From a virus, in the IMG/VR virus record IMGVR_UViG_3300031951_000634, positions 1-34,982 of that record: DNA of 34,982 bases. One strand, given 5' to 3'. A program made the position numbers and the translations under genes. Position 1 is the stretch's first letter; the number at the start of each line of letters is the position of its first letter. Shown here one piece after another: positions 3,676-34,982 of the stretch. The notes under the pieces were generated by a model. It was not told where the DNA came from and searched no databases. It worked only from the letters and a program-made list of their open reading frames with translations.

Positions 3676-4451
3676 TGGCTTTGCTTACTCGCTCGAAGTT
3701 TTATTTTGGGGTCCAGATTGATTCAGATAACAACATCCTTGATATCGACGAAGGAACGGGAGTCGTATCTGTCGCGCTTGCTGTTAAGGCGTTCTCGCCT
3801 AGTGAGCTCGCAGTCGCTCTCTCTTCGGCGCTGAACTCATCTGGATCCCTAACCTATACCGTTACTCTCAACCGCACCACACGGCTATTGAGAATTACAG
3901 CCAGTGGGACCTTCTCGATCCTTCGATCGTCTGGACCGAATAGCGCCTCCAACATCTATTCGCGCCTGGGCTTCGCCGGGTCTGGTGATCTCACTGGCTT
4001 CAGTCAATACGACGGGACTACGGCTATCGGATATTCCTACGAGCCTCAGTTTTACCTGCTCGACTACGTGCCACTGGACCACAACGTCAAGAGCGTGAAG
4101 GCCTCGATCAATGAGACGGGGTCCGGGGCGGTCGAGGTAATCCGGTTCGGCACTAAGCGATACATGGAGTGCTCGATGGATTTCATCACTGATCGGAAGT
4201 TCATCGGTGACGACATCTGGACCAGTAGCCAGACAGGGATCGCGGACGCGCTTCGGTTCATGGGCTTTGCCATCGAGAAATCGACCATAGAGTTCATGCC
4301 TAACGGATTAGACGTTGCGAACTATTCGAAGCTGGTTTTAGAATCCACGGAAAGCGACTCTCAGGGGACGGGCTTTAAGCTGTTAGAAATGATCGACTAC
4401 GGCGAGGGGCTATACCGGACGGGGCGCCTGGTCTTTAGGGAGGTTTCGTGA
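3675..4451 (+). CDS. Probable distal tail (Dit-like) or tail-tip component
   Basis: This 258-aa protein has its ATG overlapping the tape-measure stop by one base (TAATG) and is the first gene after the tape measure, where siphophages usually place the distal tail protein that links tube and tip. The N-terminal half (about 1-120) is beta-rich with many Ser and Thr residues, and the C-terminal half is a mixed fold ending in GLYRTGRLVFREV. I recognise no motif and assign it by position. Its stop overlaps the GTG of the following fibre gene. Confidence 0.5.
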   Translation: MALLTRSKFYFGVQIDSDNNILDIDEGTGVVSVALAVKAFSPSELAVALSSALNSSGSLTYTVTLNRTTRLLRITASGTFSILRSSGPNSASNIYSRLGFAGSGDLTGFSQYDGTTAIGYSYEPQFYLLDYVPLDHNVKSVKASINETGSGAVEVIRFGTKRYMECSMDFITDRKFIGDDIWTSSQTGIADALRFMGFAIEKSTIEFMPNGLDVANYSKLVLESTESDSQGTGFKLLEMIDYGEGLYRTGRLVFREVS

Positions 4452-5701
4452 GCGTATTAAACGGACAGAAAGCGGACGCGGCGACATTCAACTCAGCCTT
4501 CGCGTCGAAGCAAGACGATAACACGATGTACGGGGTCCAGACGCTCAGTGACGCAGGAAGTGGGGCGACCGTTTCTAACGTACAGCAGGCTATCAATGAC
4601 GTGATCGCGTCCGACGCTCTCAAGATCCCACTGTCCCAGAAGGGCGCAGCTAACGGAGTGGCTACGCTCGGAGCAGATAGCAAGGTTCCATCGGCTCAGC
4701 TTCCGTCCTATGTCGACGACGTGATCGAGGTGGCCAACTTCGCAGCGCTCCCGGCAACTGGTGAGACCAGTAAGATTTACGTAACGCTCGACACGAATTA
4801 CTCCTATAGGTGGTCTGGATCCACCTACGTCTTTATCGGTCGGCCTATCGTTAACACTGACGAGCTCCCAGAGGGAACGACTAACCAATACTTCACAGAT
4901 ACACGCGCCAGGAGCGCAGTCATCACTCAGGTCATCACGAACGGCGTGACGGATAAGTCTCCATCCGAGGATGCGGTATTCGATGCCCTGGCTCTAAAGC
5001 TGAACACTTCCGACTTCAGCACTAGCTTCGACTCCTCGCTCGCAACTAAGACGACGAATAACCTGAGCGAAGGCCTGACTAACCTCTACTTCACAGATGC
5101 CAGGGCGCAGAGCGCGACCATCACTCACACCATCACTGACGGAGTGACCACTAAGGCTCCTTCATCAGATGCGGTCTACGATGCCCTGACTCCAATCAAC
5201 TCAGCGGTGGCAGGCAAACAGGACGGGATCCAGTTTAAGGATGAGGGGTCGAACCTCGGTACCTCTGGGACAGTTACCTCGATCGACTTCGTCGGTCCTG
5301 GGATTACGGCTACCCGGACCACGAACGCCATCACCGTTACCGTTAACGCCACTGGTGGCGGTGGTGGATGGCAGGCCTACTCTAGCCTGGCGCTTGCTGG
5401 CGGTGGGTCGATCGTGATCGTCCCGGCTGACGGTCAACAGAAGTGGCTCGTCCAGGCTTCGACTAGCGCAGGATCTCAGCTCTCGGCCACTCCATTCGGT
5501 GCGACTCCTCCGACCGCTGACGGATCAATGATCCGGCTGATCGGTAACTCGGATACGAACTGGATCGAGATCGTGAATAACGATGCGGCGAATGGTTGCA
5601 TCTTAAACGGAAGCCCGGCTAGGCTTCTCAAGTATCACATCATGGACTTTGTGTACGATGCGACTCTCGCGCGTTATATCGAAGTAAACAGGAACTTCTA
5701 A
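4448..5701 (+). CDS. Tail fibre protein with internal repeats
   Basis: This 417-aa protein starts at a GTG that overlaps the previous stop (GTGA). It has typical phage fibre features. Residues about 137-185 and 206-252 are two copies of a roughly 42-residue module with the motif TNxYFTDxRA(R/Q)SA, ending DAVxDAL, widespread in trimeric fibre shafts. A short glycine run (GGGGG) around residue 302 leads into a compact beta-rich C-terminal domain of about 115 residues that may be the receptor-contacting or trimerising tip. It is followed after 10 bases by a second fibre gene, so the phage has at least two fibre types. Confidence 0.75.
   Translation: MSVLNGQKADAATFNSAFASKQDDNTMYGVQTLSDAGSGATVSNVQQAINDVIASDALKIPLSQKGAANGVATLGADSKVPSAQLPSYVDDVIEVANFAALPATGETSKIYVTLDTNYSYRWSGSTYVFIGRPIVNTDELPEGTTNQYFTDTRARSAVITQVITNGVTDKSPSEDAVFDALALKLNTSDFSTSFDSSLATKTTNNLSEGLTNLYFTDARAQSATITHTITDGVTTKAPSSDAVYDALTPINSAVAGKQDGIQFKDEGSNLGTSGTVTSIDFVGPGITATRTTNAITVTVNATGGGGGWQAYSSLALAGGGSIVIVPADGQQKWLVQASTSAGSQLSATPFGATPPTADGSMIRLIGNSDTNWIEIVNNDAANGCILNGSPARLLKYHIMDFVYDATLARYIEVNRNF
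4859..5190 (+). repeat. Two-copy fibre shaft module
   Basis: Two in-frame copies of a module of about 42 codons occur at roughly 4859-4990 and 5060-5190. Shared residues include EGxTNxYFTDxRA, the I-T-x-x-I-T-(N/D)-GVT segment and PSxDAVxDAL. The copies differ at many third positions, so the duplication is old and kept at the protein level, consistent with a repeating trimeric shaft segment. Confidence 0.7.
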
Positions 5702-5711
5702 GGGGTAAACG

Positions 5712-7697
5712 ATGGCGCTCAACTCTAATTTTCGGACACTGACTGCGGACAACATCGAAGGCCTGGTCGATGATCGGAATTACCTGAAGGCGAGCTTCGA
5801 GAACGGGACGATCCAGGGCTGGACTGAGATGGCGGTAACGCTTACCTCTGGTCTCCCAACCGGAACTCCTACGATCTCCTCGACCGCTGCAGGTTCGATC
5901 GCGCTTTCCACTACCGCGACCACTCCTCTCTCGGGAGCTCGCTCGCTTCTCGTGACTGGCGCGGCTGGATGGACCGCAGGCCAGGGGTTCATCTCTGACG
6001 AGTTCACGCTCGACCGGATGGATCTAGGCAAGGTGCTGACAGTTAGCTTCGACTACGAACTCGTTTCCGGCACGCTCAATTTCTCAGGCACTCTCGGATC
6101 TCAGACATTGATGGTCTACATCTACGACGCTACCGCTGGAGGCGCTAACTGGATCCAGCCAGCCGGGTTCCTCGGCATGAACCAGTCGAGCGGTCCGGGT
6201 CGTGTGACTGCGACCTTCCAGTCTAGCGTGGTGGCTGGCCAGAAGTACCGGGTGGCAGTGATCGCCTCTCAGGCTGTCGGCTCCGCTTGCTCGCTTGAGT
6301 TCGATAACTTCACATGTTCTCGAGTGACTGCTCCGATTGGTCCTGTCGTGACGGATTGGGTGAGCTATACTCCGACAATCACTACCTCAAGTGGATCAAT
6401 TACAAATTACACAGCATCTGGAAAATACAGGCGTGTTGGTGATAGCGTTCAGGTTTTTGGAAGCATTAAGTTTTCTGCCGCATCGGCAGCTTTTGCTCAA
6501 TTGTACGCAACTCTTCCGTCTGGTCTTTCGATTGATACCGCAAAGGTTAATCCAAATCAGCAAACAATAATCGGTAGCTGCGGGGCGCTTGATTCTGGTA
6601 TTGCAAACTACACTGGTGGTTCTGTTTTTGTGCAGCTTCCAAGCTATGTTTATTTAGCTCCATCCGCAGTAACAACTCACGCAGGAACGGCTCCGGTTGT
6701 TACTCCGGGTTTTAGCAATACCTTTCCAATCACATTTAACACCAACGATGAAATTTCATGGGAATATGAGGTTCCCGTTACTGGCTGGTCATCCTCGACT
6801 CAGCAAAGCTCGGACACCGACACTCGGGTGGTGGCGTTTCAGGCATATAATGCTGGAGGAACGGCTACATCGGTGCCGACAGGTGCAACTGCCACAAAAA
6901 TTGTAAACCTAACCGCAATATCGGACACTCACGCCACATGGAACGCAGGATCACAGGCATATATAATTCCTGTTTCAGGGTATTACGAAATAACAAGCTC
7001 CGTATATACATCAGCCTTTAGTGGCGGTAACAGTGTTGGATTTATATTAAATGGTTCATATAACGAAACCGGAGCATCTCAACAATCTTCTTCAATAGCG
7101 CCAATAACTGTTTGGGGATCAAGAACCGTACAATTAAAGGCAGGAGACTCCGTATCTATTGGTTATTGTCAATTTTCTGGAACAACACAATCCGTTGGCG
7201 CATTTCCTCCGACATCGTTAAAGATCACAAGACTATCCGGCCCGTCCGTGGTGGCGGCCAGTGAGACGGTGGCGGCGGTGTACCAAACCGGGGCAGGTCA
7301 ATCAATTCCTAACAATACAGTAACGCCTATTGTATACGGCACAAAAGTTTTTGATACGCACTCTGCGATGAATGCATCTACTGGTGTTTATACCGTACCA
7401 GTGAGCGGAACTTTTGAAGTTAAAGCATCCCATTATTTTGGAACGGCAATAACCGCCACTGCAACTGATGTTCAAACAATAGTTCAGGTTGATGGTATAT
7501 CAATGTTTGGATCAAACTTAACAAAGTCCGGCACGGTGGCCGCACCATTGACGACTCTTGGATCGTTTCTTGTAAAAGCAAATGCCGGACAAACCATCAG
7601 AATAGCATTGCTTCAATCAAACTCTACGGCATCTGCTCAATCTCTTTTGGCAAATGTGACATTTAATTGGATCTCCATCAATAGGGTTGGTAACTGA
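5712..7697 (+). CDS. Tail fibre / receptor-binding protein with C1q-like domains
   Basis: This 661-aa protein has an N-terminal part (about 1-210) that looks like a virion-attachment region plus a carbohydrate-binding-like beta sandwich. A fibre domain with the motif YRRVGDSVQVFGSIKFSA follows at about 215-365. Two C1q/TNF-like jelly-roll domains come next (about 372-515 and 520-660); each carries the TVPVSGxxE or IPVSGYYEI strand and a KAGxxxxI strand seen in phage C1q-type tips. C1q-like tips trimerise and bind host surface sugars. From about 6370 onward the DNA becomes clearly AT-richer with different codon choice, as if the tip had been exchanged as a module. Confidence 0.75.
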   Translation: MALNSNFRTLTADNIEGLVDDRNYLKASFENGTIQGWTEMAVTLTSGLPTGTPTISSTAAGSIALSTTATTPLSGARSLLVTGAAGWTAGQGFISDEFTLDRMDLGKVLTVSFDYELVSGTLNFSGTLGSQTLMVYIYDATAGGANWIQPAGFLGMNQSSGPGRVTATFQSSVVAGQKYRVAVIASQAVGSACSLEFDNFTCSRVTAPIGPVVTDWVSYTPTITTSSGSITNYTASGKYRRVGDSVQVFGSIKFSAASAAFAQLYATLPSGLSIDTAKVNPNQQTIIGSCGALDSGIANYTGGSVFVQLPSYVYLAPSAVTTHAGTAPVVTPGFSNTFPITFNTNDEISWEYEVPVTGWSSSTQQSSDTDTRVVAFQAYNAGGTATSVPTGATATKIVNLTAISDTHATWNAGSQAYIIPVSGYYEITSSVYTSAFSGGNSVGFILNGSYNETGASQQSSSIAPITVWGSRTVQLKAGDSVSIGYCQFSGTTQSVGAFPPTSLKITRLSGPSVVAASETVAAVYQTGAGQSIPNNTVTPIVYGTKVFDTHSAMNASTGVYTVPVSGTFEVKASHYFGTAITATATDVQTIVQVDGISMFGSNLTKSGTVAAPLTTLGSFLVKANAGQTIRIALLQSNSTASAQSLLANVTFNWISINRVGN

Positions 7698-7699
7698 TC

Positions 7700-8269
7700 A
7701 TGAAAAAAGTAATCATTAAAAACAAAGAAGGACAACACACTCACGGCGCTGAAATGCTCGATCCTCAGGCGTGGATCGCTGACGGTGTCGCAGGAAATTG
7801 GTGGGGCAAGCCCGAGCGTTGGGTTCACCACAAAGACGAGCCGATGGCCGAGGGCTACGACGAGGCCGATGTACTCGAAGAGCGCATCGTCGAGGACTAT
7901 CCCGCCATTGAGCCAGTCCTGATCTCGGAAGCCATCCCTGGAAGCCCTGCCGTGATGGACGAGGCCGGAAACATCGTCGAGGCTGAGATCCCAGAAGTCC
8001 ATGCCGTTTACTCCGAGGCCATCCCAGCTAGGACGCATCGCGAGGTAAAGCTCCGGGCCGAGTACACCGTGGAAGTCGTGGACATTACAGAGGCCGTGGC
8101 GCTGGAGAAGCTGTCCACTGAAGCTCTGCGCTACCTCGAGAGCACGGACTGGAAGGTTCTTCGACACATCAGGCAAAAGGCGCTTGGCATTACGACTAGC
8201 ATGAGCGATGAAGAATACTTAGAATTTGAACTGAGCCGTGTCGAGGCGGCGAACAAGGTTATCAGGTAA
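7700..8269 (+). CDS. Small fibre-linked protein, possibly a fibre assembly factor
   Basis: This 189-aa acidic protein is encoded two bases after the receptor-binding gene. The N-terminal half is rich in Glu, Asp and Pro. The C-terminal segment (LRYLESTDWKVLRHIRQKALG) resembles the end of many small phage proteins encoded just after fibre genes and annotated as tail fibre assembly proteins, where TDW and R-x-x-E/R helices recur. Its DNA returns to the GC-leaning style of the backbone, between two AT-rich blocks. A role in folding or attaching the C1q fibre is an inference from position. The last 32 bases overlap the next frame. Confidence 0.4.
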   Translation: MKKVIIKNKEGQHTHGAEMLDPQAWIADGVAGNWWGKPERWVHHKDEPMAEGYDEADVLEERIVEDYPAIEPVLISEAIPGSPAVMDEAGNIVEAEIPEVHAVYSEAIPARTHREVKLRAEYTVEVVDITEAVALEKLSTEALRYLESTDWKVLRHIRQKALGITTSMSDEEYLEFELSRVEAANKVIR

Positions 8270-8684
8270 CGGAAGACCGAAAGGACGGGGTAGCTATATC
8301 GCAACTTATTCAAACAATACGACGATCAAGATAGGTGATACTGTTACATTTAACAGAACAATAAGTGGTTCTAATTTTTCCGAATCTTATACCGTCCCAG
8401 CTAATTCCTACCTTGTAGTTTATCGCGCCGCTTTCAACGTCGGTTTTGGTGCTGGAGCAAACATAACCTATCAATATCCAGGACATTCACCGATTCAATT
8501 AACTGGAGGCATCCCGAACGATTTCGAATACCAAACTTCGTCATATCCATCTCCTATTGTTGCTGCAAATCCATTTGCAAAAACTTTTCCCGCTGGAACT
8601 GTGTTTGTTTTTTCTATTACAGCCGCTGGTGGGTTTAGCGCAAGCTATTCATTCGCAGCTCAACTATTCCAAAACACGCCATGA
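8238..8684 (+). CDS. Beta-rich protein, probable fibre-tip domain, uncertain start
   Basis: The only upstream start in this frame is a GTG at 8238 inside the previous gene, which adds an odd Arg-rich leader (MSRRRTRLSGNGRPKGRG) that is just the out-of-frame reading of that gene. The recognisable protein begins at about residue 20 and is Ser/Thr/Tyr-rich and beta-strand-like (SYTVPANSYLVV), like terminal domains of fibres. The DNA is AT-rich from about 8285, as in the C1q tip upstream. It may be a small tip protein, or a fragment pasted in by recombination that lost its start. I see no catalytic motif. Confidence 0.45.
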   Translation: MSRRRTRLSGNGRPKGRGSYIATYSNNTTIKIGDTVTFNRTISGSNFSESYTVPANSYLVVYRAAFNVGFGAGANITYQYPGHSPIQLTGGIPNDFEYQTSSYPSPIVAANPFAKTFPAGTVFVFSITAAGGFSASYSFAAQLFQNTP

Positions 8685-8923
8685 ATAAGATCGACGGTAA
8701 AACCTCCATTCCTGTTTTCGTAATCGGTGCGGCGGTCCCGTCTTTCGTTGCCTTTGTTCTCTGGCTCTCCTCGATCAGCTATTCAGCCACAGGAGCCGAG
8801 GCCAAGGTCCACGAACTCGAGAAGAAGCAGGAGGCCATGAGCTCGCTCCTGTTAAGCGTGAAGGAAGACCTTACGCTGATTAAGTACAAGCTAAAGATTG
8901 AAGGAGACGAGAGTGGAAAATAA
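8681..8923 (+). CDS. Small membrane protein with coiled coil, probable lysis component
   Basis: This 80-aa protein starts with an ATGA overlap with the previous stop. One transmembrane helix lies at about residues 10-33 (the stretch VFVIGAAVPSFVAFVLWL), followed by a predicted coiled coil (AEAKVHELEKKQEAMSSLLL) and a charged tail. A single N-terminal anchor and a helical soluble part fits an inner-membrane spanin or an accessory holin-like protein. It begins a tightly overlapped block ending in the endolysin, which supports a lysis role, though no family is recognised with certainty. Confidence 0.55.
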   Translation: MNKIDGKTSIPVFVIGAAVPSFVAFVLWLSSISYSATGAEAKVHELEKKQEAMSSLLLSVKEDLTLIKYKLKIEGDESGK

Positions 8924-9197
8924 AGGCGTGAAAGAAACGAAGGAAGCCCTGGTCGGGTTCATCAAGCTGGCGGCTATGCTGGCGACTGAGTTCAAGGATG
9001 GAGTCCAGGCGACCGACATCGCTCCGATCGTTGTTAAGATGCAGTCCGAGCCTCTAAAGTCCGCGCTCCTGGACGCCTATAACGGGATCGAGGAGGTCCC
9101 ATCTGAGCTCAAGGATGTGAGCTTCGGCGAGGCCCTGAGCTTGGTTCCTGAGATGATCGACGCTCTGAGTGAGCTCGTGCAGGCGGTGAAGAAATGA
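8913..9197 (+). CDS. Small helical protein of unknown function in lysis block
   Basis: I place the start at GTG 8913, giving 94 aa, because AAGGAG at 8901-8906 lies six bases upstream; a TTG at 8898 would start before this site. The protein is helical and amphipathic (KEALVGFIKLAAMLATEFKD), without a clear membrane span or signal. Small proteins of this type are often encoded next to holin and endolysin genes, but the function is unknown. Both ends overlap neighbours, so it belongs to the same translational unit as the lysis genes. Confidence 0.55.
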   Translation: MENKGVKETKEALVGFIKLAAMLATEFKDGVQATDIAPIVVKMQSEPLKSALLDAYNGIEEVPSELKDVSFGEALSLVPEMIDALSELVQAVKK

Positions 9198-9376
9198 ACG
9201 CGATCCTTTCCGTCATTAAGGCTATCCCCACCGCTCTCTCGATCATTCAGGCCCTTGTCGGGCTCGTGAAGTCTCTCCGCGAGATGGCTCACAAGAAGGC
9301 GATGGAGGACATGGAAAAGGCTGTCACGAAGGACGAGGTCAAGGAATCACTGGACGATGTTTCGCGCAATCCTTGA
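9194..9376 (+). CDS. Candidate holin-like small protein
   Basis: This 60-aa protein overlaps the preceding gene by four bases (ATGA). Residues 1-28 are hydrophobic with two prolines and a lysine (MNAILSVIKAIPTALSIIQA), then the sequence becomes highly charged and helical. One membrane-active helix plus a charged tail, encoded directly before the lysis genes, makes it a candidate pinholin or holin. It could also be a soluble amphipathic protein, since the hydrophobic part is broken by Lys and Pro. Confidence 0.4.
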   Translation: MNAILSVIKAIPTALSIIQALVGLVKSLREMAHKKAMEDMEKAVTKDEVKESLDDVSRNP

Positions 9377-9611
9377 GCGCGTACCGTTCCCTCTGACGCT
9401 GGCCCTTGCCGGGTGCAACGAAAGCCCAGACGCGAGCCTGTGCGTGATCTATTCAGACGATCCGAAGCCTGTGGTGTTCTGCCAGAACATGAAGACAGGC
9501 GAGGCCAGAGAGATTAGCCTAAAGGAATCCCATAAGTTCTACGCCATGAGCCCGAAGGATTATGAAGCCGTTCGGGCCTGGCATCGCAAGGAGTGCATGA
9601 CGAATGAGTGA
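9357..9611 (+). CDS. Predicted lipoprotein, possible o-spanin-like lysis protein
   Basis: This 84-aa protein has an N-terminal signal with basic residues (MFRAILERVP), a short hydrophobic core (PFPLTLALAG) and a lipobox LAGC with the acylated Cys at residue 20. It would be exported and lipid-anchored; Asn at +3 and the acidic residue soon after (CNESPD) are compatible with either membrane. It overlaps the upstream gene in another frame and the endolysin downstream by eight bases. Position next to an endolysin and a single-span coiled-coil protein suggests an outer-membrane spanin, but the mature part is not proline-rich like classic Rz1. Confidence 0.5.
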   Translation: MFRAILERVPFPLTLALAGCNESPDASLCVIYSDDPKPVVFCQNMKTGEAREISLKESHKFYAMSPKDYEAVRAWHRKECMTNE

Positions 9612-10053: not shown

Positions 10054-13000
10054 ATGGCCTATCAATTAACGACCAGAGCAAAAAGTTTACTGAACCGGAC
10101 GAACATCGAGCCGAACGTGGTCTTTTGCATCGACGGTTATGAGTTCTGCTTTGGTGCTCAGATCACCGGGGTCTATGCGTTCATCGGCCAGCCTGGTCTC
10201 GAGATCGGGAACTTTATTATCGGAGGCCTCGCGCCTGATCCTCGGGTGCTGGACTACATCAGCCTAGATGGAACTACGACCAACATCACTCAACAGCTAG
10301 ACTCCGACAAAGGCGGCTCGAGCTCGACGCAGACCATGAAGATCCGGGTCGTGGACTTCGAGCAAACGGTAACGAAGCTCATCTCGCCAGGATATGACGT
10401 CGACGACGTGCTTTATCGTGACTGCACAATTTACCTCGGCTTCAAGGATGGCGCTTTTCCGGAAGACTATATCGACCTGTTCGTTGGTAAGATCCAGATG
10501 ATTGAGTCTGGCGCTGGCTTCGTCGAGTTCACGATCGCTCACCCGGAGGATCTGAAGCGCTCCGAGGTGTACCCTCTAATCGAGACCGAGCTCGATGGTC
10601 GGGCAGACTACAAGTCGGCTAAGATCCAGAACCTGTTCTACACTCAGCGCGGAGACGTGGACGGCACGGTCGAGATCCGTTACTTGCAAAGCCCGTTTAT
10701 CGGCGACACGGCTGTGGTATCCACATCAGGAAACCTGATCACAGTCGAGATCGAGTCATCGGTCACGAAACACAAGACCATCAAGAAGGCCATCGAGGGG
10801 AGCTTGGATGCTTCCTTGCTGGTCACAGTCAAGGCTGACGGAGACCAGAACGCGGTCGCGCTGGCTCAAGGGATCACACCTCTTAGCGTCCCGGATACGC
10901 TCAAGCTCAAATCAGTTGATGGATTGCTTACTAGCAACACTCCGCTCGTCCGCACATTCGTTCGAGTGGATGATGAGATCATCGAATACACCGGGATCGA
11001 CACTGGTGCGAATGAGCTTCTCGGGTGTACTCGCGCCGCTCTCACTAGCTTCGGATCGGTCCATGAAGACGAGGCTTCCGTTTCGTCGATGTACATGATC
11101 GGAGACGGGACAGCAGACTCTAACGCCATTGATCTTGCACTTCGGATCATGATCTCAGGATCTGGCGATTATGTGGCCGAGCAGGGTGGGATCCAGTTCT
11201 ATAACTTTGGCGAAATGGAGAACTATCCGAACGGTCTCCTCGTGACTGGCGTGGATCTTGTTCGCGAGAAGAACATTCGAGTCGGAGATACTATCTCGAT
11301 CACTGGTTCGATGATCCCAGGCAATAACGTATCTGACACGATCGAGGACATTGAGGTGATCGACCTCGGAACCATCATTTACGTTTCTGGCGCGTCGTTC
11401 ACTGTTGAGTCTGAAAGCCCGGCTGTGATCAGCATCTCGAGTCAGTACGATGTTCTTCCCGACGGTATTGGCATGAGCCCGAAACAGGTGGATATTGAGC
11501 GGTTCATCGAGCTCAAGAAGAAGTTTCCATCCATGCTCCCGACTCTCCAGGTTTACCTGCGCGAGACGATGAACGTGAAGGACTTCATCCAGAAGGAGCT
11601 TTTCATCCCGTCTGGGATGTACGCGCTCCCACGTAAGGGCAAGGCTTCGGCTGGTATTCTCGCCCCACCGCTTTACGAGTCCGAGTCTAAGATCCTGACA
11701 CTTGATAACTTGAAGGATCCGCAGAAGATCAAGACCAGCCGATCGGTGAATAAGTATTTCTATAATGCTGTCGTGACCAAATACAACGAAGACTCGGTCG
11801 AGGCTGATAAGTACCTGAATCAGAACATCGTCCTCTCGGCTCTCTCGACCGCCAGGGTGAAGGCTCCGACTAGGCCGCTGACAGTAATCGCTCGAGGTGT
11901 TCGTCCTGGTGGGGTAAATGAAGAGATCATCCGTAGGAACTCGAAGCGCTATCTCGACCGCTACCAGTTCGGTGCCGAGTGGATCCCTGTTGAGCCTGAT
12001 TTCAAGACCGGGTTCGGGGTCGAGATCGGGGATTCCATCGTCTTCGGTGAGCCCGCACTTCAGGTGTCCGACTCGTCCACCGGGACTCGCGATTTCCGGC
12101 CTCGGGTGTTCGAAGTAGTGAACAAGGATTTCGACTGGCGCGCTGGCCGGGTCAGGCTTCAGATCGTGGACACGAACTACTCTACCGGGGTCCGCTACGG
12201 GACATGGGCCCCGGCTTCTCAGATCGTCGAGAAGGTTGGGCCTAACCAGATCAAGCTCGAGCCTTCTTTCGGAGCGGAATCAGAAGCCGATAAGTGGACA
12301 CCGTATCTGAACAGGACGGTCAGGATCCGCTCTGAGGATTTCTCCGAGAGTCAGAATGTGAAGCTAGTTTCCTTCGATCCGGCTGATCCGTTGATTGCGA
12401 CCGTCAGCCCGGCGATTCAGTTCTCCGGGACTCCAACGGTTATCATCAACTCGCTCTCGAGCGCATCGGCCGGGACTTCAACGGTTACGCTATGGGGTGC
12501 CGGGCTTGCTTCGTACACGATAGGTGCTGAGCTTATGAGAGCCTCCCCGCTTCAGCGGTTCACCATGATCGGCTCTGAGATCTCAACCGTGAGCTTCGTA
12601 TATAACAAAAGCGCAGGCGGCCCCATTCCGGCATCGGCTTATTACGAGGCTTTGATTTACAGGCTTTCCGGGAACTTGCTTCAGACCATGACCGCTTCCC
12701 CAAATCCGGCCAACACGAACACTCCCGTGGCTGTGTCTGATCCGATTCAGGTTCTTTCGGTTGCGTCTGGAACAAATAAGACGATCACTTTCAATTTTGG
12801 GCCGATGAGTCTAGTCGATGGTGCTGATTACGCGATTGCTTTTAGGCTCAGGATGCTAAGTGCGGATGTTGATTTCGACACCGCGGCAGCGACTCGAATA
12901 GAGCTTCAATACATCGCGGGGCGATCAAGCGCTCCGAGCATTTTAAGAAATTATGGGAACTTCTATATTTCTCAGGCGTTCTCGGCTGTCGGGTCTTATC

Positions 13001-13398
13001 CGTATCTGAAAATGAAAGCAGAAGGAGGCGAGGTCTTCGACTTCTCGAGCGCGATCCTTGATGTGCCGAATTACGACGAGCTCAACACCTCGAACGATGC
13101 GCTATACAAGGCGCTTCATCCGTTCTGGAATTGCAGCGCGGAGGTAACGGTAGGCGTGTCCGATATGGCGTTCGAGGTGGGGCCTGGTGATCTCGGAAAG
13201 TTCTTCGTTGGGGCAACTATTCGGGTGTTCGCTCCGGATTATTCCGACGACTCGAAGGAGATCCAGCTTCGTGTGAAGGAGATTGCGGGGTCGGTCGTTA
13301 CGCTGAATGCCTCGATGGGGTTCACTCCCGCGGTTGGATACCGGGTCGAGCTTATTGGCTTTGCGTCCGATCAGGGAACGCCTTATGTTTGGGTCTAA
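10054..13398 (+). CDS. Large tail-tip / baseplate hub protein
   Basis: This 1114-aa protein is by far the largest gene product. The first 600 or so residues have the strand-rich layout of siphophage tail-tip hub proteins (opening with MAYQLTTRAKSLLNRTNIEP and the segment IDLFVGKIQMIESGAGFVEF). A helical insert with FIQKELFIPSGMYALP lies near 510-530. The last 350 residues (about 770-1110) are Ser/Thr-rich beta-sandwich material suited to host contact. It probably closes the tail tube and anchors the fibres. No enzymatic motif was seen. It follows the endolysin after three bases, with no strong Shine-Dalgarno. Confidence 0.7.
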   Translation: MAYQLTTRAKSLLNRTNIEPNVVFCIDGYEFCFGAQITGVYAFIGQPGLEIGNFIIGGLAPDPRVLDYISLDGTTTNITQQLDSDKGGSSSTQTMKIRVVDFEQTVTKLISPGYDVDDVLYRDCTIYLGFKDGAFPEDYIDLFVGKIQMIESGAGFVEFTIAHPEDLKRSEVYPLIETELDGRADYKSAKIQNLFYTQRGDVDGTVEIRYLQSPFIGDTAVVSTSGNLITVEIESSVTKHKTIKKAIEGSLDASLLVTVKADGDQNAVALAQGITPLSVPDTLKLKSVDGLLTSNTPLVRTFVRVDDEIIEYTGIDTGANELLGCTRAALTSFGSVHEDEASVSSMYMIGDGTADSNAIDLALRIMISGSGDYVAEQGGIQFYNFGEMENYPNGLLVTGVDLVREKNIRVGDTISITGSMIPGNNVSDTIEDIEVIDLGTIIYVSGASFTVESESPAVISISSQYDVLPDGIGMSPKQVDIERFIELKKKFPSMLPTLQVYLRETMNVKDFIQKELFIPSGMYALPRKGKASAGILAPPLYESESKILTLDNLKDPQKIKTSRSVNKYFYNAVVTKYNEDSVEADKYLNQNIVLSALSTARVKAPTRPLTVIARGVRPGGVNEEIIRRNSKRYLDRYQFGAEWIPVEPDFKTGFGVEIGDSIVFGEPALQVSDSSTGTRDFRPRVFEVVNKDFDWRAGRVRLQIVDTNYSTGVRYGTWAPASQIVEKVGPNQIKLEPSFGAESEADKWTPYLNRTVRIRSEDFSESQNVKLVSFDPADPLIATVSPAIQFSGTPTVIINSLSSASAGTSTVTLWGAGLASYTIGAELMRASPLQRFTMIGSEISTVSFVYNKSAGGPIPASAYYEALIYRLSGNLLQTMTASPNPANTNTPVAVSDPIQVLSVASGTNKTITFNFGPMSLVDGADYAIAFRLRMLSADVDFDTAAATRIELQYIAGRSSAPSILRNYGNFYISQAFSAVGSYPYLKMKAEGGEVFDFSSAILDVPNYDELNTSNDALYKALHPFWNCSAEVTVGVSDMAFEVGPGDLGKFFVGATIRVFAPDYSDDSKEIQLRVKEIAGSVVTLNASMGFTPAVGYRVELIGFASDQGTPYVWV

Positions 13399-22023: not shown

Positions 22024-22189
22024 GCGTGTTCCCCCGCTCTTAGGGTAAGGGGATCACTAGGAAAAAAAAGCCTACTCTCTCGACTCGGTGCAGTAATGCG
22101 TTCGGCTTTGATTCCTGACGAGGATGGTCTAACACTGGAGAGAGAGGCCCCAGTGGGGCTAGCTGGACCGTCCAGTGGAGGAACAGAGC
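22024..22189. promoter_or_regulatory. Divergent regulatory region
   Basis: These 166 bases separate the reverse cassette from the methyltransferase and terminase operon, so both promoters should lie here. For the plus strand, TTGATT (22108-22113) and TAACAC (22130-22135) are 16 bases apart, a modest promoter match. Inverted repeats are CTGGA-CCG-TCCAG at 22163-22175 and GCCCC-AGT-GGGGC near 22147-22159; CCAGTGG occurs twice (about 22150 and 22172). An A8 run is at 22062-22069. The repeats look like operator sites, perhaps for a regulator acting on both operons. Confidence 0.4.
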
Positions 22190-23407
22190 ATGACCAACAT
22201 TCCAGAGATCCATTGTCGCTATGACCGGATGATTCCCATCCATGAGCTGAAGGATCACCCGAAGAACAGGAACAAGCACTCAGACGAGCAGATCGAGCGC
22301 CTGGCGAAGCTCTACGAGTACCACGGGATCAGGCATCCCATCATCATCTCCGAGCTCTCAGGCTGTATCGTGGCAGGCCACGGACGGAAGCTAGCAGGGA
22401 AGAAGGCGGGCTTCGATTCAATGCCTGTGGTCTACCAGAAGTTCGCGGACGAGACCGCCGAGTATGCGTTCATCCAGGCCGACAACGCGATCGCATCCTG
22501 GGCCGAGCTCGACCTGGCTGGAATCAATGCGGACTTGCCAGACCTTGGACCAGACTTTGATCTCGAGATGCTGGGACTCAAGGACTTTACGCTTGATCTG
22601 TCGGAGAAGCTCGAGCCAGAGTGCGACGAGGACGAAGTGCCAGACGCCAGGCCAGATCCGAAGGTGGTTCAAGGCGAGGTTTACATCCTTGGGAATCATC
22701 GCCTCATGTGCGGAGACTCAACTGCGATCACCGATATCGAACGGCTAATGAACGGCGAGAAGGCCGATATGGTTTTTACAGATCCTCCGTATGGCATGAA
22801 TTTAGATACAGACTACTCAAAAATGGGGAAATCTGGATTAAAGCACAAACGAGTCATTGGCGATGGAGATGATTTTAAGGCTGAACTAATACAAACTCTA
22901 TTGGGAATTTTTCAAGATTGTGAAGAGATTTTTTTATTCGGCGCAGATTATTACGCCGAGTTGATTCACGAAAAAAATAATGGCTCTTGGATTGTTTGGG
23001 ATAAGAGATCACGATCAGAAATTGAAGTGGGAACATTAGACGGTGCATTTGGTTCAGACTTTGAAACTTGCTGGTCTAAAAAGAAACGCAAACGAGAACT
23101 TGCGAGAGTGCTTAGGCAAACCGGAGCTTTTTCGGCAAGAGGCGAAGACAGGTCTGTCCATCCAACACAAAAGCCGGTTGCGCTTGTTGAGTGGTTTTTT
23201 GAACGCGCAAAAGGTTCAAATATTGTAGACGTTTTTGGTGGGTCTGGATCAACACTAATCGCCTGCGAAAAGACTGGACGAAACTGCTTTATGATGGAGC
23301 TTGATCCGCATTACTGCGGAGTAATCCTCGACCGATGGCAGAAGTTTACAGGCAAGAAGGCACACCGGGAAGACGGAGTCGCCTGGGATGAGATCAGAGG
23401 TGCGTGA
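22190..23407 (+). CDS. ParB-linked DNA methyltransferase (beta-class, DPPY)
   Basis: ATG 22190 is preferred, with AGTGGAGGAAC upstream. The 405-aa protein has an N-terminal ParB/sulfiredoxin-like domain (about 10-100: HPKNRNKHSDEQIERLAK, then IVAGHGRKLAG) and a C-terminal methyltransferase with DPPYGM (Asp198) before the AdoMet motif VFGGSGST (about 348-355). That order is the beta class, which methylates adenine N6 or cytosine N4. Such proteins protect phage DNA from host restriction. From about 22785 to 23330 the DNA is AT-rich, so the catalytic half was probably swapped. The stop overlaps the terminase start. Confidence 0.8.
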   Translation: MTNIPEIHCRYDRMIPIHELKDHPKNRNKHSDEQIERLAKLYEYHGIRHPIIISELSGCIVAGHGRKLAGKKAGFDSMPVVYQKFADETAEYAFIQADNAIASWAELDLAGINADLPDLGPDFDLEMLGLKDFTLDLSEKLEPECDEDEVPDARPDPKVVQGEVYILGNHRLMCGDSTAITDIERLMNGEKADMVFTDPPYGMNLDTDYSKMGKSGLKHKRVIGDGDDFKAELIQTLLGIFQDCEEIFLFGADYYAELIHEKNNGSWIVWDKRSRSEIEVGTLDGAFGSDFETCWSKKKRKRELARVLRQTGAFSARGEDRSVHPTQKPVALVEWFFERAKGSNIVDVFGGSGSTLIACEKTGRNCFMMELDPHYCGVILDRWQKFTGKKAHREDGVAWDEIRGA

Positions 23408-28522: not shown

Positions 28523-29365
28523 ATGGCTGACGTAATCACTGGCAATACTCAACTGGTTGCCACCAAGAATGACTTGATCACAAGCCTCGTCCAGAAGGAA
28601 CTGAAGTTCCGGGCGAAGCTTCTCGCATCTGTAACCGACCTATCCAGCTACGCTGGCAAGGGCATGAAGTCTATCAGCTTCCCTAAGCTGTCTAGCTTCA
28701 CCGTTGAAAACCGCGCTTCGGCTGTTCCTGGAACCATCCAGGCCCTGAGCGCTACCACCGACAAGCTCGACCTCAACCTGAATGCTTACGTTTCCTGGTT
28801 GATCGACAGCTCTGACGAGATCCAGTCCTCTATGGACGTGCAGATCGAAAACGCTCTCCGCGCTGCTTCCGCTCACGGTCGCTACGTCGACGAGCAGATC
28901 ATCGCTGTCCTCGAAGCAGGCGCCGGCCTCGACGTCGGAACCGCTCCTTTGACTGCTGACTTGATCTTGGATGCTCGCGAACAGCTCCTGAAGTCTTTCG
29001 CTGATCCTGCCGCTTGCGTTATGCTCATCGGCCCAGATCAGGAGAAGGCCATGCTCAAGATTGCCGAGTTCGTGCGCGCCGACTACTACGGCTCGTCCAA
29101 CATCCCAAGCGGACAGATCGGCACCGTGTACGGAATGCCTGTCATGGTTCACCAGGGCGTTGCCGCTGGCAAAGGCTACTGGTACAGCAAAGACGCTGTC
29201 GGTATCGCTTTCCAGAAGGCTCCGTCCATGGCCGAGCAGTCTGAGATCGCTTACGGAACCAACGCTAAGCGCGTGGCAATCGACCAGCTCTTCGGTGTTA
29301 AGGCTCTCCAGACTGGTGAGCTCGGCGCCGCTTCTGGCAAGTCGCCTCTCATCGTAAAGATCTAA
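28523..29365 (+). CDS. Major capsid protein (HK97 fold)
   Basis: This 280-aa protein follows the scaffold and is rich in Ala and Ser with optimised codons, as expected for the most abundant virion protein. Residues about 20-75 form the N-arm and E-loop region (SLVQKELKFRAKLLASVTDL, then GMKSISFPKL). A long spine helix lies near 115-135, and the P- and A-domain follows with FVRADYYGSSNIPSGQIGTV and YGMPVMVHQGV, which are typical of phage HK97-type capsids without a delta domain. It has no N-terminal domain for a fused protease. Confidence 0.85.
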   Translation: MADVITGNTQLVATKNDLITSLVQKELKFRAKLLASVTDLSSYAGKGMKSISFPKLSSFTVENRASAVPGTIQALSATTDKLDLNLNAYVSWLIDSSDEIQSSMDVQIENALRAASAHGRYVDEQIIAVLEAGAGLDVGTAPLTADLILDAREQLLKSFADPAACVMLIGPDQEKAMLKIAEFVRADYYGSSNIPSGQIGTVYGMPVMVHQGVAAGKGYWYSKDAVGIAFQKAPSMAEQSEIAYGTNAKRVAIDQLFGVKALQTGELGAASGKSPLIVKI

Positions 29366-30308: not shown

Positions 30309-32999
30309 ATGGCGAATAAAAAGATTACAGAATTAAACGAACTGACAACGGTTGTGGGCTCCGATGTTCTCCCCATTGTGGACATCTCGGCCAATGAAAC
30401 CAAGAAGGCCACGGCTGATTCACTGAAGAGCTATATAACAGCCGATAACACCGCAGCGATCGCAACCAAGGCAGGAAAGAACCGCAGGGTCAGGAAGTCG
30501 ATCTCGATTCAGCTCGACACTCCGACGAATCCAGTTATCGCAGCAGGGGCGTCGCACACCTATGTAATCGACCTGGGCGAGACTTTCGACCAGCTTGTTC
30601 TGACCAACTTCCAGTGGGTAGCACCTAAGAATAACCCGACCGATCCTGAGCTCGTAGTCGCTAACGCCATGTTCCCTCGCGCTCGTTATGGTGGGGCTCT
30701 TGTGGTCAACAAGACTCCAGGAAGCTGGACCCGTGGCTTTGAAATGGAAGTAGCAGAGTTCCAGTCTGGAGGCCTGTCAGACGTAGAAGCTCCGCTTTCT
30801 GCCACCTCTGACGATGTAGACGCTCCTCTCGGGTACGGATCAAGCAGGCTTCAGGTTCCTCTCGATCACATCGCGATCCAGACCACGCCGCCGAAGAAGC
30901 TCCAGATCGAAGACGTTTATCTCGACGGGCAGAATCTCAAGGTTACCATCAAGAACCACGACTCGACCTCGATTGACCTATCGTCCTATGTAGGCGTAAC
31001 CGCTCTTTTTGATGAGGACAGAAACGCGAACATGGGCGCGGTCGCCGAGAATGGTGTTCTGGCTTATTCGTCGTATGATGCGAGCTCGGTTCGCATTTCA
31101 GAGGATGGCGGCAAGACATTCTCGACTTCATTCATGAGCCTGAACAATAACTCAGACTCTACATCGGTCATACAGCGAACATCATCAATGGCCGCGACAA
31201 GCGACTCGGTCAATACCTTTATCGGCTTGTTCAATTATGCTTATGTTAAGGTCGCTCAATCCCCAGACTATGCCTTTCAAAATAGGTTCTGGGTTCAAAG
31301 CCTTGGAGAATCATTTAACCCAACCTTTGCGAAGGCCGTTAGCATGAACGAACCAGTCGGAGGAAAGCTGTTCGACTGGAAAAAAACCGATACTGAATCC
31401 TGCGCCCTATTCGCCGGGTTCATGAATTACTATGCCATCCGCGTCTATAAGTCGGTTGACGATTGCTTTACCTTTGGAGCCAACTCTCCAGACTTTAACG
31501 ATAGCCTTCCTGTGTTTAACTCGGACGGTATCGAGACCAATGACCTTCCAGACTTTGCAGCGAGCAGGACTCCAAGCGGCTCTCTTGATTATGTTAAGGC
31601 TCAGGTAAAGGTGATCGACGAAGAGACTCACTACCTCGCCCTTTCATACTGGGCCAAGGACGAGCTTTTTTACAACGGCCTCCCGTCTAATGATCTGTTC
31701 ATCGGACCTCAAACGATCGTCGGAGAGGAAAGCATTCCGTTCGAACTTCGGGCCAATGAGGTGGCCTTTGTTCGTGCGTCTTATCCGACCAGCTCATTCG
31801 GTAGATTCAAAATCACAGGATCCACTCTTGGCAATAACTTAGAGAGCACGACAGCCGGAACGCCACTCTCTTCTCCGATGGAGATTTACTACATCGGACT
31901 CCAGACTGTAGGAGCCGAGTCTGTTGATATTGCCGCTGACGAGATGGCGATCAAAAAAGACGATTGGGACACTCACACGACTTTTACGATAGGTGCAAAC
32001 ACTTATAGCGCAGTGGTCGGGGATAATATCCAGAGCACATTCACGCAGAATAGCACCATGATCTTCGGACTTCGTGACGCAACGATCGACGGGGTTTTAT
32101 TCAAGCTCGTCAGGGTTGGCAGGATTCAAGACGGCCAGCCTGTTCAGCTCTTTAACTATGGCGCTGATTCTAACAGTGGGAGCCCGATCCCTGGCGTGTT
32201 CGCTCAGTTCTCTCTAGGCGTTAGGAATTACAACATCAACGGGAAACAATACTGGGTTTTTCCTGGTAACGAAAACACCTTTACAGCCGAGGCGTCTGAG
32301 CTTGCCAATCCTGTCGGTGGGAATGTGAACCTGAAGCACTATTTCCAAATGCTGACCGGGACACAGAAAAACATACTGCTCAAGTCAACGAATGGCGGTG
32401 GAAGCTGGGAATCTGTCAACGAGGATCCAGAGTTCCGATACTCGCCGAGCTCGATCTTCTACTCTTCGAACGACGGTCAGACCCTGATGCTCGCGGCGAT
32501 GAAATACTGGACTGGCGTATCCTATGAAAAATGGCCATACGCAACCAATCCGAGCAACATGGGCGCAGATGCTAGGTTCAACATCTCGATCGATGGTGGC
32601 GATACCTGGAGGAACGCTAGCGGTGCATGGGATAACATGGCAACCGGGCTTATCAATGTAAGCATGAACACGGGCGGTCCATCCTATTCCGGCCGTCCTC
32701 CTGGCGGTCAGATCATGGGGAAGATCGGCGACGAGATCCTGGCCATCCTGTTAAACGACGACCAGAAGCCTGTCTTGATTCGGTCGGTTGATAATGGCAT
32801 GACCTGGTCTTCTAAGATCATCCTTCGCGAACCGTTTGGAGGAACAGGCGGAGGATTCAATGCATTCTCGCCAGATTCTAAAGATCAGTTCATGGCTTTC
32901 TTCGGGCATTTTTATCAGAAGAACCTCGATCAATACTTGTATTTCGGATCGGTGGTCGATAAGTTTACCCAATGGAAATCCTTCGGCGTGATCGAATAA
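30309..32999 (+). CDS. Large Asp-box (sialidase-like) fibre or spike protein
   Basis: This 896-aa protein starts with a virion-attachment sequence (MANKKITELNELTTVVGSDV) found at many fibre N-termini. Further on come Asp-box hairpins: SEDGGKTF (264-271), and at about 691, 759 and 824 the segments STNGGGSW, SIDGGDTW and SVDNGMTW, with a weaker SVDDCFTF near 382. The regular spacing of about 65 residues near the end suggests a beta-propeller, the fold of sialidases and other glycan-binding or cutting spikes. The catalytic Arg triad was not located, so binding rather than hydrolysis is possible. It lies among head genes. Confidence 0.65.
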   Translation: MANKKITELNELTTVVGSDVLPIVDISANETKKATADSLKSYITADNTAAIATKAGKNRRVRKSISIQLDTPTNPVIAAGASHTYVIDLGETFDQLVLTNFQWVAPKNNPTDPELVVANAMFPRARYGGALVVNKTPGSWTRGFEMEVAEFQSGGLSDVEAPLSATSDDVDAPLGYGSSRLQVPLDHIAIQTTPPKKLQIEDVYLDGQNLKVTIKNHDSTSIDLSSYVGVTALFDEDRNANMGAVAENGVLAYSSYDASSVRISEDGGKTFSTSFMSLNNNSDSTSVIQRTSSMAATSDSVNTFIGLFNYAYVKVAQSPDYAFQNRFWVQSLGESFNPTFAKAVSMNEPVGGKLFDWKKTDTESCALFAGFMNYYAIRVYKSVDDCFTFGANSPDFNDSLPVFNSDGIETNDLPDFAASRTPSGSLDYVKAQVKVIDEETHYLALSYWAKDELFYNGLPSNDLFIGPQTIVGEESIPFELRANEVAFVRASYPTSSFGRFKITGSTLGNNLESTTAGTPLSSPMEIYYIGLQTVGAESVDIAADEMAIKKDDWDTHTTFTIGANTYSAVVGDNIQSTFTQNSTMIFGLRDATIDGVLFKLVRVGRIQDGQPVQLFNYGADSNSGSPIPGVFAQFSLGVRNYNINGKQYWVFPGNENTFTAEASELANPVGGNVNLKHYFQMLTGTQKNILLKSTNGGGSWESVNEDPEFRYSPSSIFYSSNDGQTLMLAAMKYWTGVSYEKWPYATNPSNMGADARFNISIDGGDTWRNASGAWDNMATGLINVSMNTGGPSYSGRPPGGQIMGKIGDEILAILLNDDQKPVLIRSVDNGMTWSSKIILREPFGGTGGGFNAFSPDSKDQFMAFFGHFYQKNLDQYLYFGSVVDKFTQWKSFGVIE

Positions 33000-34189
33000 A
33001 GCTCGTTTATGTGCTCAGCGACTCCCCCATCAAGCCTTGCGGAGGCCTGGGGGAGCGCCTGAGAAAGCTCTTACCAATGATAAAGGAGCACTGTGATGTG
33101 TTCATCTATTGCGCTGGCGAGGGTGGGGTCTATGATGGAATTGAGGTCAAGGCGATTGACATCGAATGTCCAGACTATGGGAATCCGTATCCTTTCTTTT
33201 ATACGAACTTCGTCTTAGATAACCCCCCACCGTTTTCGCCTGATGTGGTGATCGCGACCGATTACGGAACGATCATGGCGGCCAAAGCGTTAGCTTCGAT
33301 TCACGGAGCGAAGCTTGTAACCGAGTTTCATCTGGCTTATTACTCTCTCAAGAAGGCCATCAAAGAACACGAGCTCGTGGGAGAGATGAAGCTAGACCAG
33401 GCGGCTAGGCTCGTTTATCTCATTGAGCAGATCGGAGCTACTTCATCAGATCTCGTTATCGGGTGTTCAACCAACTATGTAAATGACCTACCATGGGAAA
33501 CCAAAAAGGCCGTGGCGATCCAGAACGGGATCGACGCTGAGAAGTACAAGGGCGACCATAAGCCATTCAAGTTCGAGGGTGGCAAGAAGCGAAACCTGGT
33601 CTTTATTGGCAGGATGAACACTCAAAAGGGAATCAAATACCTGTTCGATTATTACGCGGTCCATGAGGGTCGCCGTAGGTATCTGGCTAGGATCCCTGAC
33701 TCAGAAAGGCTGATCCTTCCAGAGGATACGGCGCTGCATTTCGTGGGCGGTCCGATCGGTGGGGATCAGTGGGATTCGATGCTTGAAACGGTCAAGAATA
33801 GTGACCAGAAGTTCCACATTCCTTTCGTGAGCGGACAGGAAAAGATCGACCTCTTGAAGTCAGCAGATGCGATCATCTTCCCGTCTGTCCACGAGCCTTT
33901 CGGGATCGTAGGCCTTGAGGCGTTCGCGGCTGGGGTTCCGCTTATTACATCCATGGTGGACGGTATCGCTGACTATGCTAATGAATATAACTCCATCAGG
34001 TGCGAGCTCAGTTCGGCAGGTGTTCGATCTGCTATTGATAGGCTGTTTTCCATGCCTGAATCGGAGCGCCGAGCCATGATCGAGAACGGCTTCAAAACAG
34101 CCGAGCGATTTAATTGGAAAGACATCGCGGAGCAATTCATACTCGAGTTGAGGAGTTTGACTAATGGCGACGATCTTCGGACATCTTGA
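32972..34189 (+). CDS. GT4-type glycosyltransferase
   Basis: This 405-aa protein has the two-domain GT-B plan. The N-terminal domain opens RIKLVYVLSDSPIKPCGGLG with the donor-side glycine loop. The C-terminal domain has LVFIGRMNTQKGIKYL (about 207-222) and FPSVHEPFGIVGLEAFAAG with the E-x7-E motif (about 307-315) that holds the nucleotide sugar. The reaction is transfer of a sugar from an NDP or UDP donor; the acceptor is unknown. It overlaps the spike gene by 28 bases and the connector by 26, so it is part of the late operon. Modification of virion proteins or of host surface sugars are the two likely roles. Confidence 0.8.
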   Translation: MEILRRDRIKLVYVLSDSPIKPCGGLGERLRKLLPMIKEHCDVFIYCAGEGGVYDGIEVKAIDIECPDYGNPYPFFYTNFVLDNPPPFSPDVVIATDYGTIMAAKALASIHGAKLVTEFHLAYYSLKKAIKEHELVGEMKLDQAARLVYLIEQIGATSSDLVIGCSTNYVNDLPWETKKAVAIQNGIDAEKYKGDHKPFKFEGGKKRNLVFIGRMNTQKGIKYLFDYYAVHEGRRRYLARIPDSERLILPEDTALHFVGGPIGGDQWDSMLETVKNSDQKFHIPFVSGQEKIDLLKSADAIIFPSVHEPFGIVGLEAFAAGVPLITSMVDGIADYANEYNSIRCELSSAGVRSAIDRLFSMPESERRAMIENGFKTAERFNWKDIAEQFILELRSLTNGDDLRTS

Positions 34190-34874
34190 ACGCGAGGCAA
34201 TAATCCAGACAAACGATAAGACTAGGCTTGATGCGAGTAAGTCATTCTCTCCCAAGGGTGGGGCTTCGATTGAGCACGTAAAGATTAGCCCAGAGGTGGG
34301 GGTTGCTCTTATTAACGTGCACAGCGGAGGAAACCCAAAAGACTGGCATCTAGATTGGGAGTATGCGACTCCAGGAATTAAAACCATTACAATGGAGCTG
34401 AAAGCAGGACCGACAACTCAGGTTTTTACCTACACTATCGAGGTCGTGACTCCAGAGCAGGACAAGCTCTTCTCGAAGGACTCGGATCTGATCCAGTTCG
34501 AGCCTGACATTCTCAAGTGGCTCCCGGCTGGAAAGAGCACATACAACAATATCCACCGCAACGCGCAGTACCTGATCCTGGACTGGCTGGATTCGATCCG
34601 GGTCTGGCGTACGGACGGGACCAAGCTCACAAAAGCGGACCTTTCCCTCACTGATGATCTTAAACAGCTCTCGATTTACATGACGCTTGAGCTCATCTTT
34701 ATGGGCATTTCCAATCAAGTCGACGACGTGTTCCTGAATAAGGCTAGAATGTACGGACAGAAGGCGCTCCTGGTCCAGGGCCGTGGCCGGATCCAGGCTG
34801 ATTTCAACGGTAACGGTACGCTAGAATCTTCCGAAGGAGCAGACCTGCGCTCCTTTACGCTGGTGCGGCGATGA
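34164..34874 (+). CDS. Head-tail connector with PKD-like and EF-hand segments
   Basis: This 236-aa protein precedes the tail terminator. The N-terminal part (about 20-95) looks like a PKD/Ig-like domain (RLDASKSFSPKGG, then WHLDWEYATPGIKTITMEL). The C-terminal part (about 100-205) is helical, like gp6/gp15-type connector adaptors (KSTYNNIHRNAQYLILDWLD). Near the end DFNGNGTLESSE (about 213-224) fits a canonical EF-hand calcium loop (Asp1, Asn3, Asn5, Gly6, Glu12). The overlap with the glycosyltransferase and tail terminator ties it to neck assembly. A calcium-stabilised neck is the inference. Confidence 0.6.
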   Translation: MATIFGHLEREAIIQTNDKTRLDASKSFSPKGGASIEHVKISPEVGVALINVHSGGNPKDWHLDWEYATPGIKTITMELKAGPTTQVFTYTIEVVTPEQDKLFSKDSDLIQFEPDILKWLPAGKSTYNNIHRNAQYLILDWLDSIRVWRTDGTKLTKADLSLTDDLKQLSIYMTLELIFMGISNQVDDVFLNKARMYGQKALLVQGRGRIQADFNGNGTLESSEGADLRSFTLVRR

Positions 34875-34981
34875 GTCTCACGGCTGTCCGTCCATACGTT
34901 ACAGCCAGGATGACCGAGCTCGGATATACCGAGCACACGGATCCATTCAACGATCAGAACATCCCATCAGCCATTATCGAC
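34856..34981. repeat. Terminal direct repeat, right copy
   Basis: Identical to bases 1-126, then one mismatch at the last base of the window. It reflects circular closure of the contig. Annotation should treat 34856 onward as a duplicate of the start. Confidence 0.9.
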
Positions 34982-34982
34982 A
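34871..34982 (+). CDS. Partial duplicate of the tail terminator gene
   Basis: This is the first 37 codons of the gene at 16-450, repeated because of the circular overlap and cut by the window end. It is not a second gene. Confidence 0.9.
   Translation, partial: MSLTAVRPYVTARMTELGYTEHTDPFNDQNIPSAIID

Follow-up and report, generated by a model that had tools for sequence, protein, structure and literature searches.

A GT4-family glycosyltransferase gene paired with a spike gene in three otherwise dissimilar tailed phages

We analysed a viral DNA stretch of 34,982 nucleotides (the whole of it, positions 1 to 34,982 of IMG/VR record IMGVR_UViG_3300031951_000634, one strand, is hereafter called the window), in which a glycosyltransferase (GT) gene of the GT4 family lies directly behind the gene of a spike protein. 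The same two genes stand side by side in two further phages that differ from the window phage in their virion genes. On balance, we lean towards the GT being a dedicated modifying enzyme of the spike encoded just upstream, the two genes together making up a two-gene receptor-binding cassette. The elements of the pair are as follows.

32972..34189, plus strand: GT4-family (GT-B fold) glycosyltransferase, 405 amino acids (Pfam, predicted structure with Foldseek, motifs)
30309..32999, plus strand: spike/fibre protein, 896 amino acids, the conserved partner of the GT (identity to GT-adjacent spikes, anchor module, Asp-boxes)
32972..32999, plus strand: overlap of the spike and GT genes, 28 nucleotides (junction comparison)

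Homologues were sought in 2.9 million IMG/VR viral contigs, by scans that depend on short peptide seeds and in records that are incomplete. Two close relatives of the GT were found, namely L001 on a 124.6-kb contig (G001; 68% identity) and L092 on a 40-kb contig (G002; 62-64%), and a spike homologue with the full body lies directly upstream of each (58% and 43% identity, respectively). Spike and GT are adjacent, in the same order and orientation, in all three phages. With pairwise identities of 68, 62 and 62% for the GT against 58, 43 and 42% for the spike, the GT is the better conserved of the two. Differences by codon position (0.27/0.16/0.66 for the GT) indicate purifying selection, which acts on both genes and constrains the GT more strongly. 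The third-position GC content of spike and GT is alike within each phage (0.59/0.60, 0.31/0.34 and 0.35/0.38), which argues that the two genes have long resided together.

Capsid and tail genes are not homologous among the three phages. The window phage has a phrog_2 terminase, a Phage_capsid_2 head and a GC content of 53%; G001 is a contractile-tailed phage with a long sheath (phrog_279), a GroEL, a different terminase and 43% GC; G002, also contractile-tailed with a sheath, has a phrog_38 terminase, a phrog_64 portal and 42% GC. The nearest cultured relative is Anabaena phage A-4L for the window capsid (25%) and Myxococcus phage Mx1 for the sheath of the L001 phage (34%). When 48 window open reading frames (ORFs) were compared by tblastn with both whole contigs, the matches consisted of the spike, the GT, one 196-residue segment and minor short ones, and beyond spike and GT no window gene was shared whole with G001 or G002. 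The pair is located within the head-gene run in the window and within fibre regions in G001 and G002.

The window spike consists of an N-terminal virion-anchor module (about residues 1-45, MANKKITELNELT...) followed by the body. In about 79 further viral loci the similarity to it is confined to the anchor module, and no GT of this kind was found in their fetched flanks, which reach 4 kb or more downstream in at least 29 of the first 46 loci. In the G002 spike, the N-terminal anchor is replaced by one that resembles the N-terminal end (49%) of the product of a second G002 fibre gene, while body and GT are retained. This second fibre gene (L111:1717-3381, 554 amino acids) carries the same N-terminal anchor as the G002 spike (L109:2035-2170). 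Judging from these alignments, the spike bodies are fused to phage-specific anchors. Because no GT was found at the anchor-only loci and G002 keeps body and GT under another anchor, the GT follows the spike body, and not the anchor, the capsid, the tail or the type of genome. Body and GT were never seen apart, profile scans of either gene across the viral contigs giving only these loci. Two seed-based scans of 84,980 species genomes, which exclude close relatives only, gave no cellular or prophage relatives, and plasmids held generic GT4s only, at about 25% identity. Other contigs with the DYGNPYP codon pattern or with PCGGLGER were rejected as chance matches.

The GT gene begins with an ATG and has precisely the coordinates given by a preliminary description of the window, whose assignment to GT4 with an E-x7-E motif is borne out. 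PF00534 (Glycos_transf_1) matches with an E-value of 2.8e-20 and 73 bits (cut-off 26.4), PF13692 also matches (2.4e-14), and the PHROG match is phrog_2170, ‘glycosyltransferase’. Relatives by sequence in the PDB are GlgM, GlgA, BshA and WaaG. An AlphaFold model of moderate confidence (predicted local distance difference test, pLDDT, 72.6; predicted template-modelling score, pTM, 0.76) was aligned by Foldseek over the full length of the GT-B fold with GlgM (6tvp, E-value 1.6e-18) and also with GlgA and MshA, with template-modelling (TM) scores of 0.67-0.70 against GlgM and MshA; the matches listed are GT-B enzymes at a probability of 1.00. The motif E308-PFGIVGL-E316 is invariant in the three homologues, as are PCGGLGER (22-29), which is the N-terminal donor loop, EFH (118-120) and GR-x4-KG (213-220), with the phosphate-binding residues R214 and K219. 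A domain above the curated cut-off, the E-x7-E and R/K motifs and a two-domain GT-B fold all place the protein in GT4. We regard it as an intact and probably active member, with the retaining transfer from a nucleotide sugar that is predicted for the family. It is the sole PF00534 GT in each of the three phage records. Since PF20706 passes its cut-off (46.5 bits vs 26), membership of GT4-conflict was considered; it was rejected on the higher PF00534 score and on the gene context, which consists of virion genes and not of a conflict system.

The name ‘spike’ is upheld by four Asp-box (BNR) repeats in the body (at 264, 693, 760 and 826) and by the N-terminal module, which recurs on about 80 other phage proteins. 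As the four Asp-boxes are accompanied by weak matches to BNR, Ycf48 and sortilin profiles, the spike is a probable β-propeller or β-rich binding protein.

The GT gene overlaps both of its neighbours, as had been described, by 28 nucleotides with the spike ORF (30309-32999) and by 26 with the ORF at 34164-34874, all three running in one direction. At the spike/GT junction of L001 and L092, the sequence TAATG lets the spike stop and the GT start share one base. The window codon homologous to the ATG of these relatives is ATA, and the sole standard start is an ATG 24 nucleotides upstream. The GT start has thus apparently been relocated in the window, to an in-frame ATG inside the conserved Q-W codons of the spike. 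Such a junction would be consistent with kept function and coupled translation.

These observations suggest the following scenario. The spike and GT cassette would have passed as one piece from one tailed phage to another, unrelated one. Its translation would be coupled through the overlapping junction, so that enzyme and substrate would be made together in the cytosol. The GT would draw on the nucleotide sugars of the host, probably of a UDP- or ADP-glucose-like kind, and attach a hexose-type sugar to hydroxyl side chains of the freshly synthesised spike, which would then be built into the virion; there, the binding surface of the spike would be protected, stabilised or tuned by its sugar. 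GlgM, GlgA and MshA use ADP-glucose or UDP-sugars, and a simple hexose or N-acetylhexosamine from host pools is therefore the likely donor. No sugar nucleotidyltransferase (PF00483) was found in any of the three records, nor did the phage records yield a GtrA flippase, a GT2 or a thymidylate-synthase partner. The preliminary description had proposed glycosylation of capsid, spike or tail proteins as a means of masking the virion. A virion protein indeed remains the most likely target, but the generality of that proposal is lost, as the GT tracks the spike body only, and masking as the purpose found no support. We hold more tentatively, as a possibility somewhat short of our leading one, the broader idea of a mobile ‘glyco-spike’ cassette, in which phages trade receptor-binding proteins each with its private GT and the attachment protein, not the capsid, is decorated; the spike sugar would then be open to evolution as a component of host recognition or protection.

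Several points weigh against spike glycosylation. The acceptor, the donor, the glycan and the timing are all matters that we infer. The spike, with a serine/threonine content of about 17% and no repeat, has no long Ser/Thr repeat that would be an obvious target, and the stretches richest in Ser/Thr lie at different places in the homologues. Its structure model is unusable (pLDDT 28) and gave no means of locating an acceptor surface. With no more than three cassettes known, the sample is too small to test for coevolution. Finally, a GT that modified the host glycan recognised by the spike would give the same linkage.

This last point is the core of the main rival explanation, already named as the chief alternative in the preliminary description and still so here, which we judge unlikely and less likely than spike glycosylation. 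The GT would modify a host surface glycan bound by the spike (lipopolysaccharide (LPS) core, O-antigen or capsule precursor); this would keep progeny from being trapped on debris and would block superinfection, and the need for receptor and modification to fit each other would explain why the two genes travel together. This accounts for the spike-GT linkage equally well, the GT4 relatives of the enzyme include the soluble LPS and polysaccharide enzymes RfaG/WaaG, HpsP and EpsE, and phage serotype-converting GTs are a known class. However, the position in a late operon would leave little time for surface remodelling, no GtrA flippase or GT2 bactoprenol glucosyltransferase was found in the three records, and the GT has no transmembrane segment and is acidic to near neutral, each of which speaks mildly against it; in addition, it is the spike gene, and not early or lysogeny genes, to which the GT gene is physically joined.

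We find it improbable that the linkage is passive, a moron-type GT being carried along in spike recombination and acting on an unrelated small molecule, a host protein or DNA. GT4 genes are widespread and diverse in phages, and spike C-terminal regions do recombine, carrying neighbours with them. Yet the two genes have stayed linked through a divergence of the spike to 42% identity, the GT is strongly constrained, and a GT without the spike was not seen in the scans. As to DNA modification, no thymidylate-synthase homologue was found, and the TET/JBP search had no working control.

Still less probable is a GT that modifies other virion proteins, its place next to the spike being incidental, even though glycosylation of capsid and tail tube is established in mycobacteriophages (Freeman et al. 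2023, cited in PMC12619734). What speaks against this explanation is that the same GT is kept, always behind the same spike body, in three phages without any capsid or tail subunit in common. Tail-fibre chaperones are usually encoded by a small gene that follows a fibre gene directly and overlaps it. That the GT is mainly a folding or assembly partner in this slot, with catalysis secondary or lost, seems very improbable: GtfB of the streptococcal adhesin GT pair does bind its acceptor as a chaperone (PMC6973325), but a pure chaperone would not need the invariant PCGGLGER, EFH, GR/KG and E-x7-E motifs.

Around the pair, the gene order in the window is terminase (23745), scaffold (27927), capsid (28523), spike (30309), GT and the ORF starting at 34164. 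Two of these neighbours are listed for context.

28523..29365, plus strand: major capsid protein, context only (PF19821, 2.3e-10; phrog_267, 5.9e-20)
34164..34874, plus strand: next gene of the structural operon, 236 amino acids, outside the conserved cassette (no family match)

The GT was originally placed in a late structural operon; it does lie among virion genes, following those for terminase, scaffold and capsid, and ‘late’ is a reading of gene position. The term ‘connector’ used for 34164-34874 has no Pfam or PHROG support, and no homologue of this gene was found in L001 or L092. Promoter-like and terminator-like sites around the locus are not more frequent than in shuffled sequence.

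Other features were noted in passing. An ORF at 34872-34982 (MSLTAVRPYVTARMTELGYTEHTDP...) overlaps the last bases of 34164-34874 and is truncated by the contig end; its position makes it a possible head-tail or tail-completion gene. At 22175-23407, adjoining the terminase, a ParB-like N-terminal domain is fused to an N6/N4 DNA methyltransferase (PF02195 and PF01555; phrog_498), and 1972-9600 encodes several large proteins (567 and 661 amino acids) and a 417-residue minor-tail/peptidase-like protein, with little or no family match. The 196-residue segment mentioned above (12439-13026, residues 796-991 of the 1114-residue product of ORF 10054-13398) is 55% identical to part of L105:10393-13707 of G001, a tail-fibre/decoration-like protein; this similarity suggests a second module exchanged between the window phage and G001, and hence related hosts. 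The GroEL-type chaperonin of G001 is encoded at L107:8750-10465 (phrog_5725), and a few genes past the cassette, the translation of L102:5854-6573 looks by eye like a subtilisin-type protease.

If the spike is indeed glycosylated, some phages have a glycoprotein for attachment and inherit its modifying enzyme alongside it, and studying such a spike without its GT would mislead. A GT gene behind a fibre gene would then serve as a marker, in genome sequences, of a glycosylated receptor-binding protein, and this explanation predicts which virion protein bears the sugar. More generally, phages may exchange sugar-coated attachment proteins in the form of ready-made kits.

Among known systems, GlgM/GlgA (TIGR02149 glgA_Coryne; PDB 6tvp, 3fro) and MshA (3c4q) share with the window GT the GT-B fold, the E-x7-E motif and a full-length structural match, but identity is about 20% and the window GT occurs in phages behind a spike gene. 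TIGR02149 is its best NCBIfam match, at 68 bits against a cut-off of 302, and the GT is therefore not a glycogen or maltose-1-phosphate synthase. The gtrABC serotype-conversion systems are alike in being a phage-borne sugar transfer possibly linked to receptor specificity; in contrast, the window GT lacks a GtrA/GT2, is not membrane-bound and sits in a virion operon. Their markers PF04138 and PF00535 are absent from the three records, with positive controls, although the records may be incomplete. For T-even-type DNA glucosylation, PF00303, the thymidylate-synthase-like family expected for the synthesis of hydroxymethyl-pyrimidines, is absent with a positive control from a window record that may be incomplete, and the TET search had no positive control.

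In bacteria, a GT gene often lies next to the gene of the protein that the enzyme glycosylates (PMC5230774), and serine-rich-repeat adhesins are modified by GtfA/GtfB before export (PMC6973325). These adhesin-dedicated GTs, like SdgA/SdgB with the Sdr proteins, resemble the present case in that a cytosolic GT gene lies beside the gene of a surface-binding protein; the GT adjoins such a gene in 3/3 phages, the substrate relation being putative. The L001 GT matches the SdgA family weakly (5.7e-7, 28.5 bits vs 800). The window GT differs in being smaller and in having no match to an accessory acceptor-binding domain (DUF1975 was not found on it with Pfam), and the spike belongs to the Asp-box (BNR) proteins instead of the Ser-rich or SD-repeat ones, no Ser/Thr-rich repeat acceptor having been found in it.

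A further parallel comes from mycobacteriophages, whose capsid and tail-tube subunits are reported to be glycosylated by phage GTs (Freeman et al. 2023, Cell Host Microbe, cited in PMC12619734 and PMC11256854); there too, phage-encoded GTs are thought to act on virion proteins. Kinship with actinophage GTs was not found, a tblastn search of 50,697 phage records giving five weak matches, none of them to a named actinophage. By these citing accounts, capsid and tail-tube subunits are modified in mycobacteriophages, whereas the window GT is genetically bound to one spike body. Since that glycosylation has already been published, as cited in the same two papers, the preliminary suggestion that virion glycosylation would itself be novel fails. 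No report of a receptor-binding protein moving between phages with its own GT was found in a literature search that was thin in subscription journals, which is weak evidence of absence. What is known, then, is virion glycosylation by phage GTs; what would be new here is the mobile cassette of a receptor-binding protein and its GT.

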